Below are positions 127 through 42,210 of a stretch of DNA of 64,000 bases, one piece after another. Below the pieces are notes generated by a model. The model was not told the origin of the DNA and searched no databases. It saw nothing but the letters and a program-made list of their open reading frames with translations. Location: positions 3,844,001 through 3,908,000 of the forward strand of contig NZ_CP146614.1 in NCBI RefSeq assembly GCF_037094685.1, read 5' to 3'. The stretch is from Massilia sp. METH4. GTDB taxonomy: Bacteria; Pseudomonadota; Gammaproteobacteria; Burkholderiales; Burkholderiaceae_D. A program made the translations under genes and the position numbers. Numbering within the stretch: the stretch's first letter is position 1; every line of letters starts with the position of its first letter.

Positions 127-2949
127 TCAGCCCGTATTGCGCAAGCCCGCCGCCACGCCGTTGATCGACAGGTGGATGCCGCGGTGCACGCGCGGGTCGG
201 CCTTGTCCGCCTCGGCGGCCAGCGCCCGGCGCCGCTTGATCAGCTCCACCTGCAGGTGGTTCAGCGGATCGAGATACGGGAAGCGGTTCTGGATCGAGCG
301 CGCCAGCAGCGGGTTGCCTGCCAGGCGTTCGGTCGCGCCGGTCACGGTATCGAGCACCTCCAGCGTGCGGCGGTACTCGTCGCTGATGCGCTTGAAGATC
401 CGCTCGCGCAGTTCCTTGTCCGCCACCAGTTCGGCATAGCGCGAGGCGATCGCCAGGTCGGTCTTGGCGAACACCATGTCCATATTGGACAGCAGCGTGG
501 CGAAGAACGGCCAGTGCTCGGCCATCTCGCGCAGCTTGCCGAGGCGTTCCTCGCGGTCGCCGTCGGCGATCCAGCCCGCCACGGCGCTGCCCACGCCGTA
601 CCAGCCCGGCAGCAGCAGGCGGCACTGGCCCCACGAGAAGCCCCACGGAATCGCGCGCAGGTCTTCGATGCGCTTGGTCGACTTGCGCGAGGCGGGGCGC
701 GAACCGATGTTCAGCTCCGCGATCTCGGCGATCGGCGTGGCCGCAAAGAAGTAGTCGGTGAAGCCCGGCGTTTCGTACACGAGGTTGCGGTAGGCCTTGT
801 ACGCGCGGTCGGACAGTTCCGCCATCACGGCTTCGAAGCCCGCTACCTGTTCGGTGTGCTCCGGGTGGGCCACCGGCATCAGGCTCGCTTCCAGCGTGGC
901 CGCGACCAGGCGCTCCAGGTTGCGGCGGCCGATCTCGGCATTCGAGAATTTCGAGGCGATGATCTCGCCCTGTTCCGTCAGGCGGATCTGGCCGTTCACG
1001 GTGCCCTTCGGTTGCGCCAGGATCGCCTCGTAGCTCGGGCCGCCGCCGCGGCCGACGGTGCCGCCGCGGCCGTGGAACAGGCGCAGCTTCACGCCGGCCT
1101 TGCCGAACACCTCGATCAGCGCGATCTCGGCCTTGTACAGTTCCCAGTTCGACGTGAGGAAGCCGCCATCCTTGTTCGAGTCGGAGTAACCCAGCATCAC
1201 TTCCTGGATTTGCCCGCGCTTCTCGATCAGGCCCTTTACCAGCGGCAGCGACATCACCGCTTCCATGATGCCGGCGGCGCGCTGCAGGTCGGGGATCGTC
1301 TCGAACAGCGGGATCACCATCAGGTCGGCCGTCGTTTCGCCTGCGGCGTTCGTGCGCAGCAGCCCCGTTTCCTGTTGCAGTACCAGCACTTCCAGCAGGT
1401 CGGACACGGTTTCCGTGTGCGAGATGATGTAGTTGCTGATGGCCCGCTCGCCGTAGCGGCGGCGGATCTCGCGCGCGGCGCGGAAGATCGACAGTTCGGA
1501 CTGCGTCTCGTCCGTGTAGTCGATGTACGGCGAGTACAGCAGGCGCGGCTGGGCCAGCTCGGCCAGCAGCAGTTTCACCTTCGCATCCTCATCGAGTTCC
1601 GCGTAGTTCGGCAGGGCGCCGGCGCGGGCAAACAGTTCGGTCAGCACGCGCTCGTGCACGTCCGAGCTCTGGCGCATGTCCAGCGAAGCCAGGTGGAAGC
1701 CGAAGATGTCGGCGGCGCGCTTCAAGGTCGTCAGGCGCGGGCGCGCCAGCAGCGCGGCGTGGTTCGCTTCCAGCGAATCGATCAGCACCTGCAGGTCGGC
1801 CGAGAAGGCGGCGGCGTCCGGGTACGGCTCGGCATGGCCCACTTCCTTGCGCAGGATATTGGTCGCGCCCAGCGACCGTGCGGTGCTGGCCAGGCGGGCG
1901 TAGATGCCGATCAGCGCGCGGCGGTAAGGCTCGTCCGCGCGGTGGTCCGACTGGTCCGGCGATGCATCGGCCAGCGCCTGCAATTGCGGGCTGCACGGCA
2001 CCATCAGCGTGGAGATCGACAGGTCGGCGCCCAGCGCGTGCGCTTCGTCCAGGTAGAAGTCGAGGATCGTCGTGGCCTGGCGGGCCAGCGCGTGCTGCAT
2101 CGTGTCCGCGTTCACGTTCGGGTTGCCGTCGCGGTCGCCGCCGATCCAGCTGCCCATCTGCAGATAGGGCGCTTCGATGGTGGGAACGTCGCTGCTTCCG
2201 TACTGCTCGGCGATATCGGCCTCGATATCGTCGTACAGGCCCGGCACCTCGGTGAGGAAGGTAATGCGGTAGTACGACAGCGCGTTCTCGATCTCGTCGG
2301 CCACCGTCAGTTTCGTGTAGCGCAGCATGCGCGTCTGCCACAGGGTGGCGATGCGCACGCGCAGCATGTGCAGGTTGGCGGCGCGTTCGCGCGGCGTCAG
2401 CGGCAGGTCGCGTTCGGCCAGCAGGCGGGCGATGTCGTGCTCGGCATCCAGGATCGACTTGCGCTGCACCTCGGTCGGGTGGGCGGTCAGTACCGGGGCG
2501 ATCAGCGCTTCCTTGAAGAAGTTCTGTACGGTGTCCTGGCCGACGCCGGCTTCCTTCAGCTTGGCAAGGGCGTAGCGGGTACTGCCGCGCCGCGGCTGCG
2601 AGCCCGCCAGCAGGTGGGCGCGGCGGCGGCGGATGTGGTGCTGGTCTTCCGCGATATTGGCCAGGTGCGAGAAGTACGAGAAGGCGCGCACCACCGAGAT
2701 GGTCTGTTCCTTCGTCAGGATCTTCAGCATGCCGTCCAGTTCCTTGGCGGCACCGGCGTCCGCCTCCCGGCGGAAACGCACGGCGGTCTGGCGGATCGTT
2801 TCCACCACGGCGAAGACTTCCTCGCCTTCCTGTTCGCGCAGCACGTCGCCCAGCAGGCGGCCGAGCAGGCGGATATCTTCTTTCAGCGGCGCGTCCTTGT
2901 CGGCGGCGCTTTGTTCATTATTATCTGTCGCACTTACTTGATTAACCAT
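127..2949 (-). CDS. ppc: phosphoenolpyruvate carboxylase
   Basis: Cytosolic enzyme that carboxylates phosphoenolpyruvate with bicarbonate to oxaloacetate, refilling the TCA cycle. About 940 residues, normal for the family. Visible signatures are TAHPTEVQRKS with the catalytic His, the glycine-rich FHGRGGTVGRGGGP loop, GYSDSNKDGG, and a C-terminal RNTG that corresponds to the conserved NTG tail, so the gene is complete. The ATG at 2949 (MVNQVSATDN) is chosen because the residues upstream do not look like protein of this family. An in-frame ATG at 2991 is possible, and neither start has a strong Shine-Dalgarno. The gene diverges from hemC and ends in a hairpin terminator. Confidence 0.97.
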   Translation of the reverse strand: MVNQVSATDNNEQSAADKDAPLKEDIRLLGRLLGDVLREQEGEEVFAVVETIRQTAVRFRREADAGAAKELDGMLKILTKEQTISVVRAFSYFSHLANIAEDQHHIRRRRAHLLAGSQPRRGSTRYALAKLKEAGVGQDTVQNFFKEALIAPVLTAHPTEVQRKSILDAEHDIARLLAERDLPLTPRERAANLHMLRVRIATLWQTRMLRYTKLTVADEIENALSYYRITFLTEVPGLYDDIEADIAEQYGSSDVPTIEAPYLQMGSWIGGDRDGNPNVNADTMQHALARQATTILDFYLDEAHALGADLSISTLMVPCSPQLQALADASPDQSDHRADEPYRRALIGIYARLASTARSLGATNILRKEVGHAEPYPDAAAFSADLQVLIDSLEANHAALLARPRLTTLKRAADIFGFHLASLDMRQSSDVHERVLTELFARAGALPNYAELDEDAKVKLLLAELAQPRLLYSPYIDYTDETQSELSIFRAAREIRRRYGERAISNYIISHTETVSDLLEVLVLQQETGLLRTNAAGETTADLMVIPLFETIPDLQRAAGIMEAVMSLPLVKGLIEKRGQIQEVMLGYSDSNKDGGFLTSNWELYKAEIALIEVFGKAGVKLRLFHGRGGTVGRGGGPSYEAILAQPKGTVNGQIRLTEQGEIIASKFSNAEIGRRNLERLVAATLEASLMPVAHPEHTEQVAGFEAVMAELSDRAYKAYRNLVYETPGFTDYFFAATPIAEIAELNIGSRPASRKSTKRIEDLRAIPWGFSWGQCRLLLPGWYGVGSAVAGWIADGDREERLGKLREMAEHWPFFATLLSNMDMVFAKTDLAIASRYAELVADKELRERIFKRISDEYRRTLEVLDTVTGATERLAGNPLLARSIQNRFPYLDPLNHLQVELIKRRRALAAEADKADPRVHRGIHLSINGVAAGLRNTG

Positions 2950-38348: not shown

Positions 38349-40094
<1,746 letters not shown>

Positions 40095-40107
40095 TCATGC
40101 TTCCTGT

Positions 40108-40138
40108 GAAGGGCTTTTGCAGATAGCCCTTCCATTTT
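40108..40138 (+). terminator. probable terminator of serS
   Basis: Stem GAAGGGCT / AGCCCTTC (40108-40115 with 40125-40132), then CATTTTG. The T-run is short, so the call is moderate. It lies 13 bases after the serS stop. Confidence 0.6.
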
Positions 40139-40184
40139 GCTTGCGGGCTGCTATAATCTTGCCTTCTCGCAGCGATGTGAGAAA

Positions 40185-40322
<138 letters not shown>

Positions 40323-40327
40323 GGACG

Positions 40328-40467
40328 GCAGAGGGTGGGATTCGAAGACTCGCGCTTACCAGCGCGGGGCTCTCCGAATCGCCACTTTGCCGCAGCTTCG
40401 CTGCGGCTTCGCGCGCCGAGGGCGCGCGGCGCCTGCGTCATCTTTCGGCGAGCTCGCCACGAGGACG
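40328..40467. repeat. single 140-bp unit of the tRNA-associated repeat
   Basis: Diverged copy of the unit that forms the array at 41171-41999. It begins with GAGGGTGGGATTCGAA, the reverse complement of the tRNA-Ser 3' portion, continues through CTCTCCGAATCGCCAC and the CGCGCGCC...GGCGCGCG hairpin, and ends CACGAGGACG. The open reading frames crossing it are not considered real. Confidence 0.8.
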
Positions 40468-40572
40468 GCACTTTGCCGCGCCCGCGCGGCGCCGCCAGCG
40501 CTTCGCGCTGGCGTCCTCCCCCTGACTAGGCTCTACGCCTCCGCTCCGCTCCCGGCGCTTCCAACGCTCTTG

Positions 40573-40868
40573 CGCTCCCGCGCTCCCGCGCTCCCGCGCT
40601 CCCGCGCTCCCGCGCTCCCGCGCTCCCGCGCTCCCGCGCTCCCGCGCTCCCGCGCTCCCGCGCTCCCGCGCTCCCGCGCTCCCGCGCTCCCGCGCTCCCG
40701 CGCTCCCGCGCTCCCGCGCTCCCGCGCTCCCGCGCTCCCGCGCTCCCGCGCTCCCGCGCTCCCGCGCTCCCGCGCTCCCGCGCTCCCGCGCTCCCGCGCT
40801 CCCGCGCTCCCGCGCTCCCGCGCTCCCGCGCTCCCGCGCTCCCGCGCTCCCGCGCTCCCGCGCTCCCG
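40573..40868. repeat. octanucleotide tandem repeat (CGCTCCCG)37
   Basis: 37 uninterrupted perfect copies of the 8-base unit CGCTCCCG (296 bases), with degenerate copies on both sides. The period is not a multiple of three and the unit has no stop codon in any frame, so every frame is open (Ala-Pro-Ala-Leu-Pro-Arg-Ser-Arg and the like) without being coding. It lies between the two tRNA-Ser genes. Copy number is likely to vary between isolates and may be collapsed or expanded by assembly. Confidence 0.95.
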
Positions 40869-40956
40869 CGCTCCCCCCGCTCCGCTCCCATCGCTCCCAC
40901 ACGCATACGCATCCGGTCCTCCCGCCGCCATCCGCCCCCCGATTCACCTCAAAGAA

Positions 40957-40985
40957 TTGACGAGCAACACCCATTGCTATAGAAT
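40957..40985 (+). promoter_or_regulatory. sigma-70 promoter of tRNA-Ser copy 2
   Basis: TTGACG (40957-40962), 17-base spacer, TAGAAT (40980-40985): five of six matches in both boxes with ideal spacing. Predicted start near 40992, 36 bases before the tRNA. Confidence 0.75.
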
Positions 40986-41027
40986 CCGTGCCTCTTGAGT
41001 TGCAAGCAGTTCAGCGCAACGCGAGAA

Positions 41028-41165
<138 letters not shown>

Positions 41166-41170
41166 GGACG

Positions 41171-41999
41171 GAAGAGGGTGGGATTCGAAGACCAGGCCCT
41201 ACCGGGCCTGGGCTCTCCGAATCGCCACTTTGCTGGCGCTCCGCGCCAGCCTCGCGCGCCGAGGGCGCGCGACGTGTGCGTCATCGTTCGACGAGCTGGC
41301 CACGAGGACGGAAGAGGGCGGGATTCGAAGATCTGGCCCTGTCGGGCGCCCAGGCCTTTGGCCTGGGCTCTCCGAATCGCCACTTTGCTGGCGCTCCGCG
41401 CCAGCCTCGCGCGCCGAGGGCGCGCGACGTGTGCGTCATCTTTCGACGAGCTGGCCACGAGGACGGAAGAGGGTGGGATTCGAAGATCTGGCCCTGTCGG
41501 GCGCCCAGGCCTTTGGCCTGGGCTCTCCGAATCGCCACTTTGCTGGCGCTCCACGCCAGCCTCGCGCGCCGAGGGCGCGCGACGTATGCGTCATCTTTCG
41601 ACGAGCTGGCCACGAGGACGGAAGAGGGTGGGATTCGAAGATCTGGCCCTGTCGGGCGCCCAGGCCTTTGGCCTGGGCTCTCCGAATCGCCATTTTGCTG
41701 GCGCCTTGCGCCAGCCTCGCGCGCCGAGGGCGCGCGACGTATGCGTCATCTTTCGGCGAGCTGGCCACGAGGACGGAAGAGGGCGGGATTCGAAGATCTG
41801 GCCCTGTCGGGCGCCCAGGCCTTTGGCCTGGGCTCTCCGAATCGCCACTTTGCTGGCGCCTTGCGCCAGCCTCGCGCGCCGAGGGCGCGCGGCGTGTGCG
41901 TCATCTTTCGGCGAGCTGGCCACGAGGACGGAAGAGGGTGGGATTCGAAGACCCGCGCTTGCCAGCGCGGGGCTCTCCGAATCGCCACGGTGCGTCATT
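41171..41999. repeat. tandem array of about 5.5 units of a 155-bp tRNA-derived repeat
   Basis: Units start with GAAGAGGG at 41171, 41311, 41466, 41621, 41776 and 41931. The first is a 140-bp short form, the next four are 155 bp, and the last is broken by an internal deletion. Each unit begins with an antisense 16-mer of the tRNA-Ser T-arm/acceptor (GAGGGTGGGATTCGAA). It then holds a CCCAGGCC TTT GGCCTGGG hairpin, a CTGGCGC...GCGCCAG hairpin and a CGCGCGCC GAG GGCGCGCG hairpin. 155 is not divisible by three, so successive units change frame; the long open frames on both strands are by-products, not genes. Confidence 0.9.
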
Positions 42000-42210
42000 C
42001 AGACGTACGCGGCCCATTGCCGGCAGGCTGGCCATGCTCGTGCCTTTGAATGATGGGACTACTCGATGACATAACGGCGGTCGCGCCGCTGGCAGCGATG
42101 GCCGGTACGGGGCCTCTTTCTGCCGAGTGACTGGTTGGAGCGTTGATGGGCCACAGGAACCACATGGTGACGACGATAACCAGGATCAGCACCGGAACGA
42201 TCTTGTTCAT
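41995..42210 (-). CDS. small single-pass membrane protein, unknown
   Basis: 71 residues. CGGAGG stands 9 bases before ATG 42210. A membrane span (about 3-22, IVPVLILVIVVTMWFLWPI) is followed by a short polar tail. No family recognised. The 3' end runs into the last, broken repeat unit, which may have replaced its original tail. Confidence 0.6.
   Translation of the reverse strand: MNKIVPVLILVIVVTMWFLWPINAPTSHSAERGPVPAIAASGATAVMSSSSPIIQRHEHGQPAGNGPRTSE

Follow-up and report, generated by a model that had tools for sequence, protein, structure and literature searches.

In the window analysed here, a 64,000-nucleotide stretch of Massilia sp. METH4 DNA, two tRNA-Ser(CGA) genes on the plus strand are each followed by hairpin-rich repeat DNA. 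The first, copy 1 and the target gene (40185..40274, +, detected by ARAGORN and RF00005), stands just after an ORF ending at 40094 that we read, from its sequence, as probable serS; copy 2 lies at 41028..41117 (+, ARAGORN). A terminator-like symmetric palindrome adjoins each tRNA gene on the 3' side, at 40275..40322 for copy 1, where it has 22-bp arms and a 4-nt loop, and at 41118..41165 for copy 2. Starting 55 nt after each copy, AGAGGGTGGGATTCGAA reverse-complements the tRNA-Ser 3' end exactly over 17 nt, from T-loop to acceptor (40330..40346 and, in the first array unit, 41173..41189; minus strand in both cases), so that the exact antisense stretch which the original prediction had placed at the start of the unit is present behind both genes. 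The inverted repeat runs on into the terminator arms.

Copy 1 is followed by one element, with a core at 40338..40429 (+) scoring 97.3 bits with R1, a covariance model of the core whose alignment includes this copy; a 102-nt match at 40367-40468 reaches 86% against the unit at 41472-41626. Behind copy 2, one unit of 140 bp comes first, then four of 155 bp and finally a truncated one, all on the plus strand. Unit 1 (41177..41316) matches at 86% the comparison unit, unit 3 (41472..41626), while the values are 98% for unit 2 (41317..41471), 96% for unit 4 (41627..41781) and 95% for unit 5 (41782..41936); the last unit (41937..41988) breaks off at ~41988. TRF reports a period of 155 with 4.8 copies and 97% matches over 41205-41951. 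The description of the array as near-identical 155-bp units is accurate for four of them, at 95-98%, but not for its first unit of 140 bp. Eight reading frames of at least 80 aa overlap 41171-41999 and are probably spurious. Between the first element and tRNA-Ser copy 2, about 41 copies of the 8-bp GC-rich repeat CGCTCCCG occupy 40547-40875 with 96% matches.

The units have a conserved fold. In unit 1, a closing helix, GATTCG (41182-41187) with CGAATC (41218-41223), surrounds hairpin 1 (arms 41192-41199 and 41204-41211; whole structure 41182..41223, +), and two further hairpins follow at 41232..41250 (hairpin 2, with covarying arms) and 41253..41271 (hairpin 3), both on the plus strand. The pairing of GATTCGAAGA with TCTCCGAATC, predicted to contain one mismatch, is present in the sequence with a single A·C mismatch. 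A 129-nt piece of the unit folds better than 200 of 200 shuffled sequences on both strands (z -5.7 for plus, -7.7 for minus). In an alignment of 131 copies of this kind, hereafter window type (A2; 126 distinct, fitted to the structure of R1), 97.6% of pair cells are standard, and both partners vary in 19 of 27 pairs, a number equalled in 0 of 500 shuffles. This covariance analysis bears out the expectation that the hairpins would carry compensatory changes.

Within the same genome, the inverted matches keep to tRNA-Ser genes. RF00005 finds 85 tRNA genes, of which 75 were examined for inverted 3'-end matches; such matches occur 51-79 nt downstream only behind the two tRNA-Ser(CGA) genes (17 nt), tRNA-Ser(TGA) (12 nt) and tRNA-Ser(GGA) (11 nt). 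Behind tRNA-Ser(GCT) of this genome no inverted 3'-end match was found, and an ordinary terminator-like hairpin stands there, while the 70 non-Ser genes give inverted matches of 10 nt at most, the longest lying at 315 nt. A search with the unit finds nothing outside the flanks of the two tRNA-Ser(CGA) genes, where it returns six matches; diverged forms of the element lie behind tRNA-Ser(TGA) and tRNA-Ser(GGA).

In other genomes, the unit as query matches 27 of 61, own genome included, and R1 finds the core in at least 66 of 294 genomes and at least 6 of 44 genera of the family, both lower bounds from a search that scored 14 candidates per genome. Among the R1 matches listed, 100 regions were retrieved. 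With copies below 40 bits excluded, 127 loci hold 164 copies, and the nearest same-strand upstream tRNA is tRNA-Ser in 132 of 132 cases (GCT 38, GGA 36, TGA 32, CGA 26). Because L044 and L186 represent one site entered twice, the distinct copies with an upstream tRNA-Ser are 130 of 162; this double entry amounts to 2 copies of the 164 and 1 of the 99 used below, in the counts for tRNA link, T-stem, conservation and nearest core. With all 130 distinct upstream tRNAs being tRNA-Ser, the units of relatives are linked to tRNA genes and not scattered, and of the two possibilities raised in the original prediction, a read-through antisense RNA and a tRNA-targeted repeat, the latter is the best fit. 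The distance from tRNA to element ranges from 56 to 9101 nt; 99 copies lie within 110 nt, and many of the other 33 are later copies of arrays. More tandem arrays, with other unit lengths, occur in other genomes (L143, L146, L186 (= L044), L033 and L263). A strict, non-split pattern is found in 4 of 300 genomes of the order and 5 of 299 of the phylum, own genome included in each.

For 32 copies, the retrieved flank contains no tRNA gene; in 25 of these, a piece of a tRNA-Ser 3' end, 10 nt or longer, is present in the 150 nt upstream (none of 32 when shuffled), and we read them as probable sites where a larger island split the tRNA from the element. Truncated tRNA-Ser 3' ends adjoin tRNA-less elements at L102, L111, L119, L122, L132, L174 and others, as expected were larger islands integrated into tRNA-Ser. 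For 78 of 99 copies, the nearest core shares the isoacceptor (27% expected), therefore much of the element's spread is old, and a core from another isoacceptor of the same genome is closer in only 8 of 56. By these comparisons old vertical descent dominates the spread, which counts against the reading of the element as an inserted cassette, developed below.

The inverted arm is matched to the local tRNA gene in most window-type copies. Among the 99 copies (98 distinct) no further than 110 nt from a tRNA, the inverted T-stem is the complement of the local T-stem in 85, with 26/26 for TGA, 25/26 for GGA, 10/13 for CGA and 24/34 for GCT. Where tRNA genes have altered T-stems, the inverted arm tracks the alteration in three GGA genes and in one of two GCT genes. 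This host-customised arm is the hardest fact to explain.

A longer arrangement, the full form, is found more widely. A split pattern that allows a spacer hairpin matches 110 of 294 genomes, which belong to 19 of 44 genera, and nothing in the reversed control; the counts include window-type matches and some chance ones. The full form begins with the tRNA 3' end and a trailer or terminator; in many cases an inverted acceptor strand comes next, then a hairpin and the inverted T-arm. It continues with hairpin 1, GCGG, a hairpin 2 of its own (CCYGC-N-GNA-N'-GTRGG) and a second sense copy, CGAATC...CCA. Hairpin 1 is a near-perfect palindrome of varying sequence. The 61 full-form cores (53 of 41-nt length, 51 distinct) have a tRNA within 200 nt in 55 cases: Ser 30, Glu 18, Asp 6 and Arg(CCG) 1. 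In these 55, the second sense copy measures at least 14 nt in 27, 7-13 nt in 26 and less in 2, and the inverted T-stem exactly fits the adjoining tRNA in only 29, an argument against the cassette. An intact tRNA with a displaced direct 3' fragment, a trait of tRNA-integrated elements, is thus found in the full form and as a vestige in the window type. The full-form alignment (A3) drew on 48 of 58 references; the 48 cores align gap-free, with 97.7% standard pairs, a value biased for the closing helix and hairpin 2 because the core-picking script required pairing there, while hairpin 1 was unfiltered. In hairpin 2, with the same pre-filtering, a G·T pair is kept in 50 of 51 cores, G·U being allowed and A·C absent, hinting at a plus-strand fold and so speaking against a cassette.

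R2, a model built from full-form copies only, matches at least 10 of 230 genomes across the order (22 candidates scored per genome), and in other families the elements lie at tRNA-Asp (L318), tRNA-Ser (L321) and, once, tRNA-Leu(CAG) (L320). Another, L319, is a full-form element of 65.8 bits in a 3-kb locus with no tRNA, which again does not favour a tRNA-targeted cassette; L323 and L324 also match without a tRNA and are the weakest matches of this search. Two own-genome tRNA-Asp genes (L059:813-876 (-) and L241 near 1500-1620 (+)) have apparent degraded relatives of the full form downstream, with 24.9 bits in R2 for L059 and a pattern match for L241; these are perhaps diverged forms of the element. 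At three tRNA-Asp units, L237, L238 and L240, the inverted arm GGGGATCG is one base closer in fit to tRNA-Arg(CCG) of the same genus (L236) than to the tRNA beside it. This would be consistent with transfer before re-matching, on the strength of that one base.

R2 also recognises three elements in the window (30.6-36.8 bits, E 5e-6 to 1e-7): behind tRNA-Ser copy 1 (33.8 bits at 40333-40385), in array unit 1 (30.6 bits at 41176-41228) and in the truncated last unit (36.8 bits at 41936-41988). In these, the full-form hairpin 2 is missing and the sense copy is down to CGAATCGCCA (41218..41227, + in unit 1), which comparison with full forms of other genera suggests to be what is left of a second, sense-oriented copy of the tRNA 3' end, its T-stem and acceptor strand having probably been deleted. 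The window unit seems, as far as such comparison goes, to be a reduced form of the full form. The 155-bp units score at most 15.3 bits with R2 (E 0.088), which weakens the cassette reading.

The serS/tRNA-Ser(CGA) site is occupied in some members of the genus and free of matches in others. In 30 same-genus loci retrieved, of 59 genomes with a match, we found window-type elements in 8, full forms in 4, one weak match (L290, behind its second tRNA) and no match within the retrieved flank in 17, one of which (L298) has no detected tRNA. At the filled locus L293, one 140-bp unit runs from T-loop to T-loop, and a 67-bp exact direct repeat begins at the CGAATC of the T-loop with no upstream extension; because this repeat spans the tRNA 3' end and the terminator, the first tRNA is intact. 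L293 shares the tRNA and terminator with L289 and L290, which have no unit behind the first tRNA. The two tRNA genes are 378 nt apart in L293, compared with 247 in L289 and 251 in L290, and the net difference is 131 and 127 rather than 140 because the rest of the flank changed too. The contrast between filled and empty sites is not clean and its direction not polarised, being either gain in L293 or loss in the others, and to that extent it tells against a cassette.

Together with the fold and the tRNA link, these comparisons suggest that the window unit belongs to a family of tiny gene-less cassettes at tRNA genes in many related bacteria. The family comprises cassettes of ~140-155 bp at the T-loop end of mainly tRNA-Ser, also tRNA-Glu, tRNA-Asp and tRNA-Arg and once tRNA-Leu, and the element of the window looks more like inserted DNA than like an antisense-RNA gene. 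Our tentative reading, which we regard as a serious possibility somewhat short of probable, is that of a gene-less, tRNA-targeted insertion cassette, the window holding a reduced lineage amplified in tandem. A cassette would have arrived through a site-specific event at the T-loop. It has no integrase gene of its own, because 140-155 bp is too short to hold one, and would be non-autonomous, moved by a recombinase supplied in trans that recognises the folded hairpins, much as the same tRNA sites are used by larger islands. The inverted copy could stay matched to its host either through selection or through fold-back template switching over the terminator palindrome, which could create or re-match the arm. 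Arrays would grow by unequal exchange, and the window lineage would have lost the full-form hairpin 2 and most of the second sense copy while having two other hairpins. That such elements amount to a new class of mobile DNA, with ~140-bp gene-less cassettes defined by fold rather than sequence, inserted precisely at the T-loop so that the tRNA is kept intact, bearing an arm rewritten to the host tRNA, moved in trans by a structure-recognising recombinase and forming cassette arrays behind tRNA genes, seems to us rather unlikely, if conceivable.

Replication itself might instead have built these structures. Template switching during replication through the terminator hairpin would leave an inverted copy of the tRNA end, a second switch and amplified palindromes would follow, and quasipalindrome correction would maintain the pairing, with nothing mobile involved. 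We consider this explanation unlikely, although it would account for the order of sense, inverted and sense copies in the full form, for the inverted copies that track changes in the local tRNA and for the 67-bp exact direct repeat of the filled site L293. It also fits hairpin 1 of the full form, which is nearly without intermediates (WC 441, G·T 1, A·C 2, other 15), and the trailers on both sides of full sites, alike in 15 of 27 and unlike in 8; the likeness at those 15 sites is also explained by local duplication alone. What it leaves unexplained is a common, non-local core at different tRNAs in different genera and families, the restriction of carriers in the own genome to tRNA-Ser and, with weaker matches, tRNA-Asp among the 75 tRNA genes examined, and the G·T that stays uncorrected in the full-form hairpin 2.

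A functional RNA, co-transcribed with the tRNA or convergent to it, might pair with or mimic the acceptor/T-arm and thereby tune processing or charging; we consider this unlikely. An RNA selected on one strand is expected to give pair changes like those of a tRNA. The pair cells of the element (WC 3163, G·T 34, A·C 25, other 52) are unlike those of the acceptor and T stems of 71 tRNAs at the same loci (WC 809, G·T 32, A·C 5, other 6), and the window type shows no RNA-strand bias in them; its exchanges run from Watson-Crick to Watson-Crick. Deviations in the inverted arm (A·C 40, G·T 18, other 79, in 92 of 99 copies) likewise have no plus-strand G·U preference, and we estimate that their spread is about that given by the G-rich make-up of the arm. 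The read-through antisense RNA of the original prediction lacks support in the window type: there is no G·U bias on either strand, the symmetric terminator-like palindrome separates tRNA and unit, and beyond ~15 nt after hairpin 3 there is little conservation (99 rows). The 17 match-free serS loci of 30 also count against such an RNA. Nevertheless, the strong folds and their covariation, the complementarity matched to the local gene and the G·T kept in the pre-filtered hairpin 2 of the full form speak for it. Of 98 window-type cores, 79 fold better as the minus strand, an effect that may stem from the conserved A·C mismatch, in which the T-loop dictates the A. At L195, L216 and L325, the unit stands within a tRNA cluster and no obvious terminator precedes it. 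An RNA role is possible, above all where the unit sits inside a tRNA cluster.

REP/BIME and MITE-like palindromic repeats are short, gene-less and hairpin-rich and form tandem clusters, and the element resembles them in being short, gene-less, hairpin-rich and tandem. It differs in lying at tRNA 3' flanks and in having one arm copied from the host tRNA. That REP/BIME-like intergenic palindromes stand beside tRNA genes by coincidence, for which the tandem copies and clustered GC-rich hairpins might speak, is very improbable given that the six unit matches of the own genome are all at two tRNA-Ser genes rather than dispersed, that the nearest same-strand upstream tRNA is never non-Ser in 127 loci and that the tRNA-derived arm is matched to the local gene. 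A tRNA-like molecule, that is, an acceptor/T-arm minihelix ending in CCA, is possible but not favoured here, since degradation of the inverted acceptor strand is frequent.

The insertion cassette that we tentatively favour has partial parallels among known systems. In E. coli, the 178-bp tyrT repeats (rtT RNA) stand in tandem behind a tRNA gene, each with a piece of the tRNA 3' end, the fragment being sense and the repeats lying in one operon. The element shares with them tandem units that contain a tRNA 3' fragment, inverted in the window and sense in the full-form arrays L205 and L216, but its defining arm is inverted, mostly gene-matched and part of a covarying fold, and it occurs at several tRNA families in many genera. 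Integron attC sites conserve structure over sequence. The element does so as well, and arrays are conceivable for it too, yet its closing helix is built from T-arm sequence and we noticed no attC core boxes by eye. At Rfam 15 gathering scores, only RF00005 passes, both in 20 loci and in window positions 40000-42200. Matches to sX4, miRNA and plastid families were rejected as sub-threshold and resting on the tRNA or the terminator palindrome; that of the sX4 sRNA (RF02223, 34.2 bits against a gathering score of 70, over the tRNA-Ser region) is due to the tRNA-Ser-like part of the sX4 model and not to the element. In the open-access literature we found no description of such an element, a result that does not establish its absence from print, and both searches agree with the earlier statement that no named element of this kind is known.

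Islands integrated at tRNA genes likewise combine an intact tRNA with a displaced 3' fragment, as the Islander description presents them (PMC4383910); compared with these, the element is ~140 bp long, has no integrase gene and carries an inverted copy besides the direct one. That description lists the T-loop or the T/acceptor junction among the crossover subsites, and states that Islander drops candidates below 2 kb and tests for an integrase (PMC4383910). Because of this minimum and this test, as given there, units of ~140 bp cannot appear in Islander. If the insertion reading is true, mobile DNA, or a look-alike produced by replication, operates at tRNA genes on a very small scale, one overlooked by island finders with length filters, and how inserted DNA keeps an inverted copy matched to whichever tRNA adjoins becomes a testable question. 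Annotation can then treat the hairpin arrays behind these tRNA genes as one group.

Further searches gave isolated matches. Plasmids yielded no match in the window-type search, and plasmids, phage records and viral contigs none in the full-form search. Nor was an excised form seen, and these absences weigh against the cassette. A fixed-pattern search of genome contigs returned 14 stretches, with ~13 estimated by chance, of which only that of Pseudoduganella flava (L044, two matches) looked real. Gammaproteobacterial matches of the strict, non-split pattern were seen at tRNA-Ser (L200), and inverted T-arm pieces with hairpins at tRNA-Ser(GGA) (L202) and tRNA-Lys (L201); the latter two are possibly independent cases. 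Three IMG/VR viral contigs (L327, L328 and L329) carry the window-type pattern.
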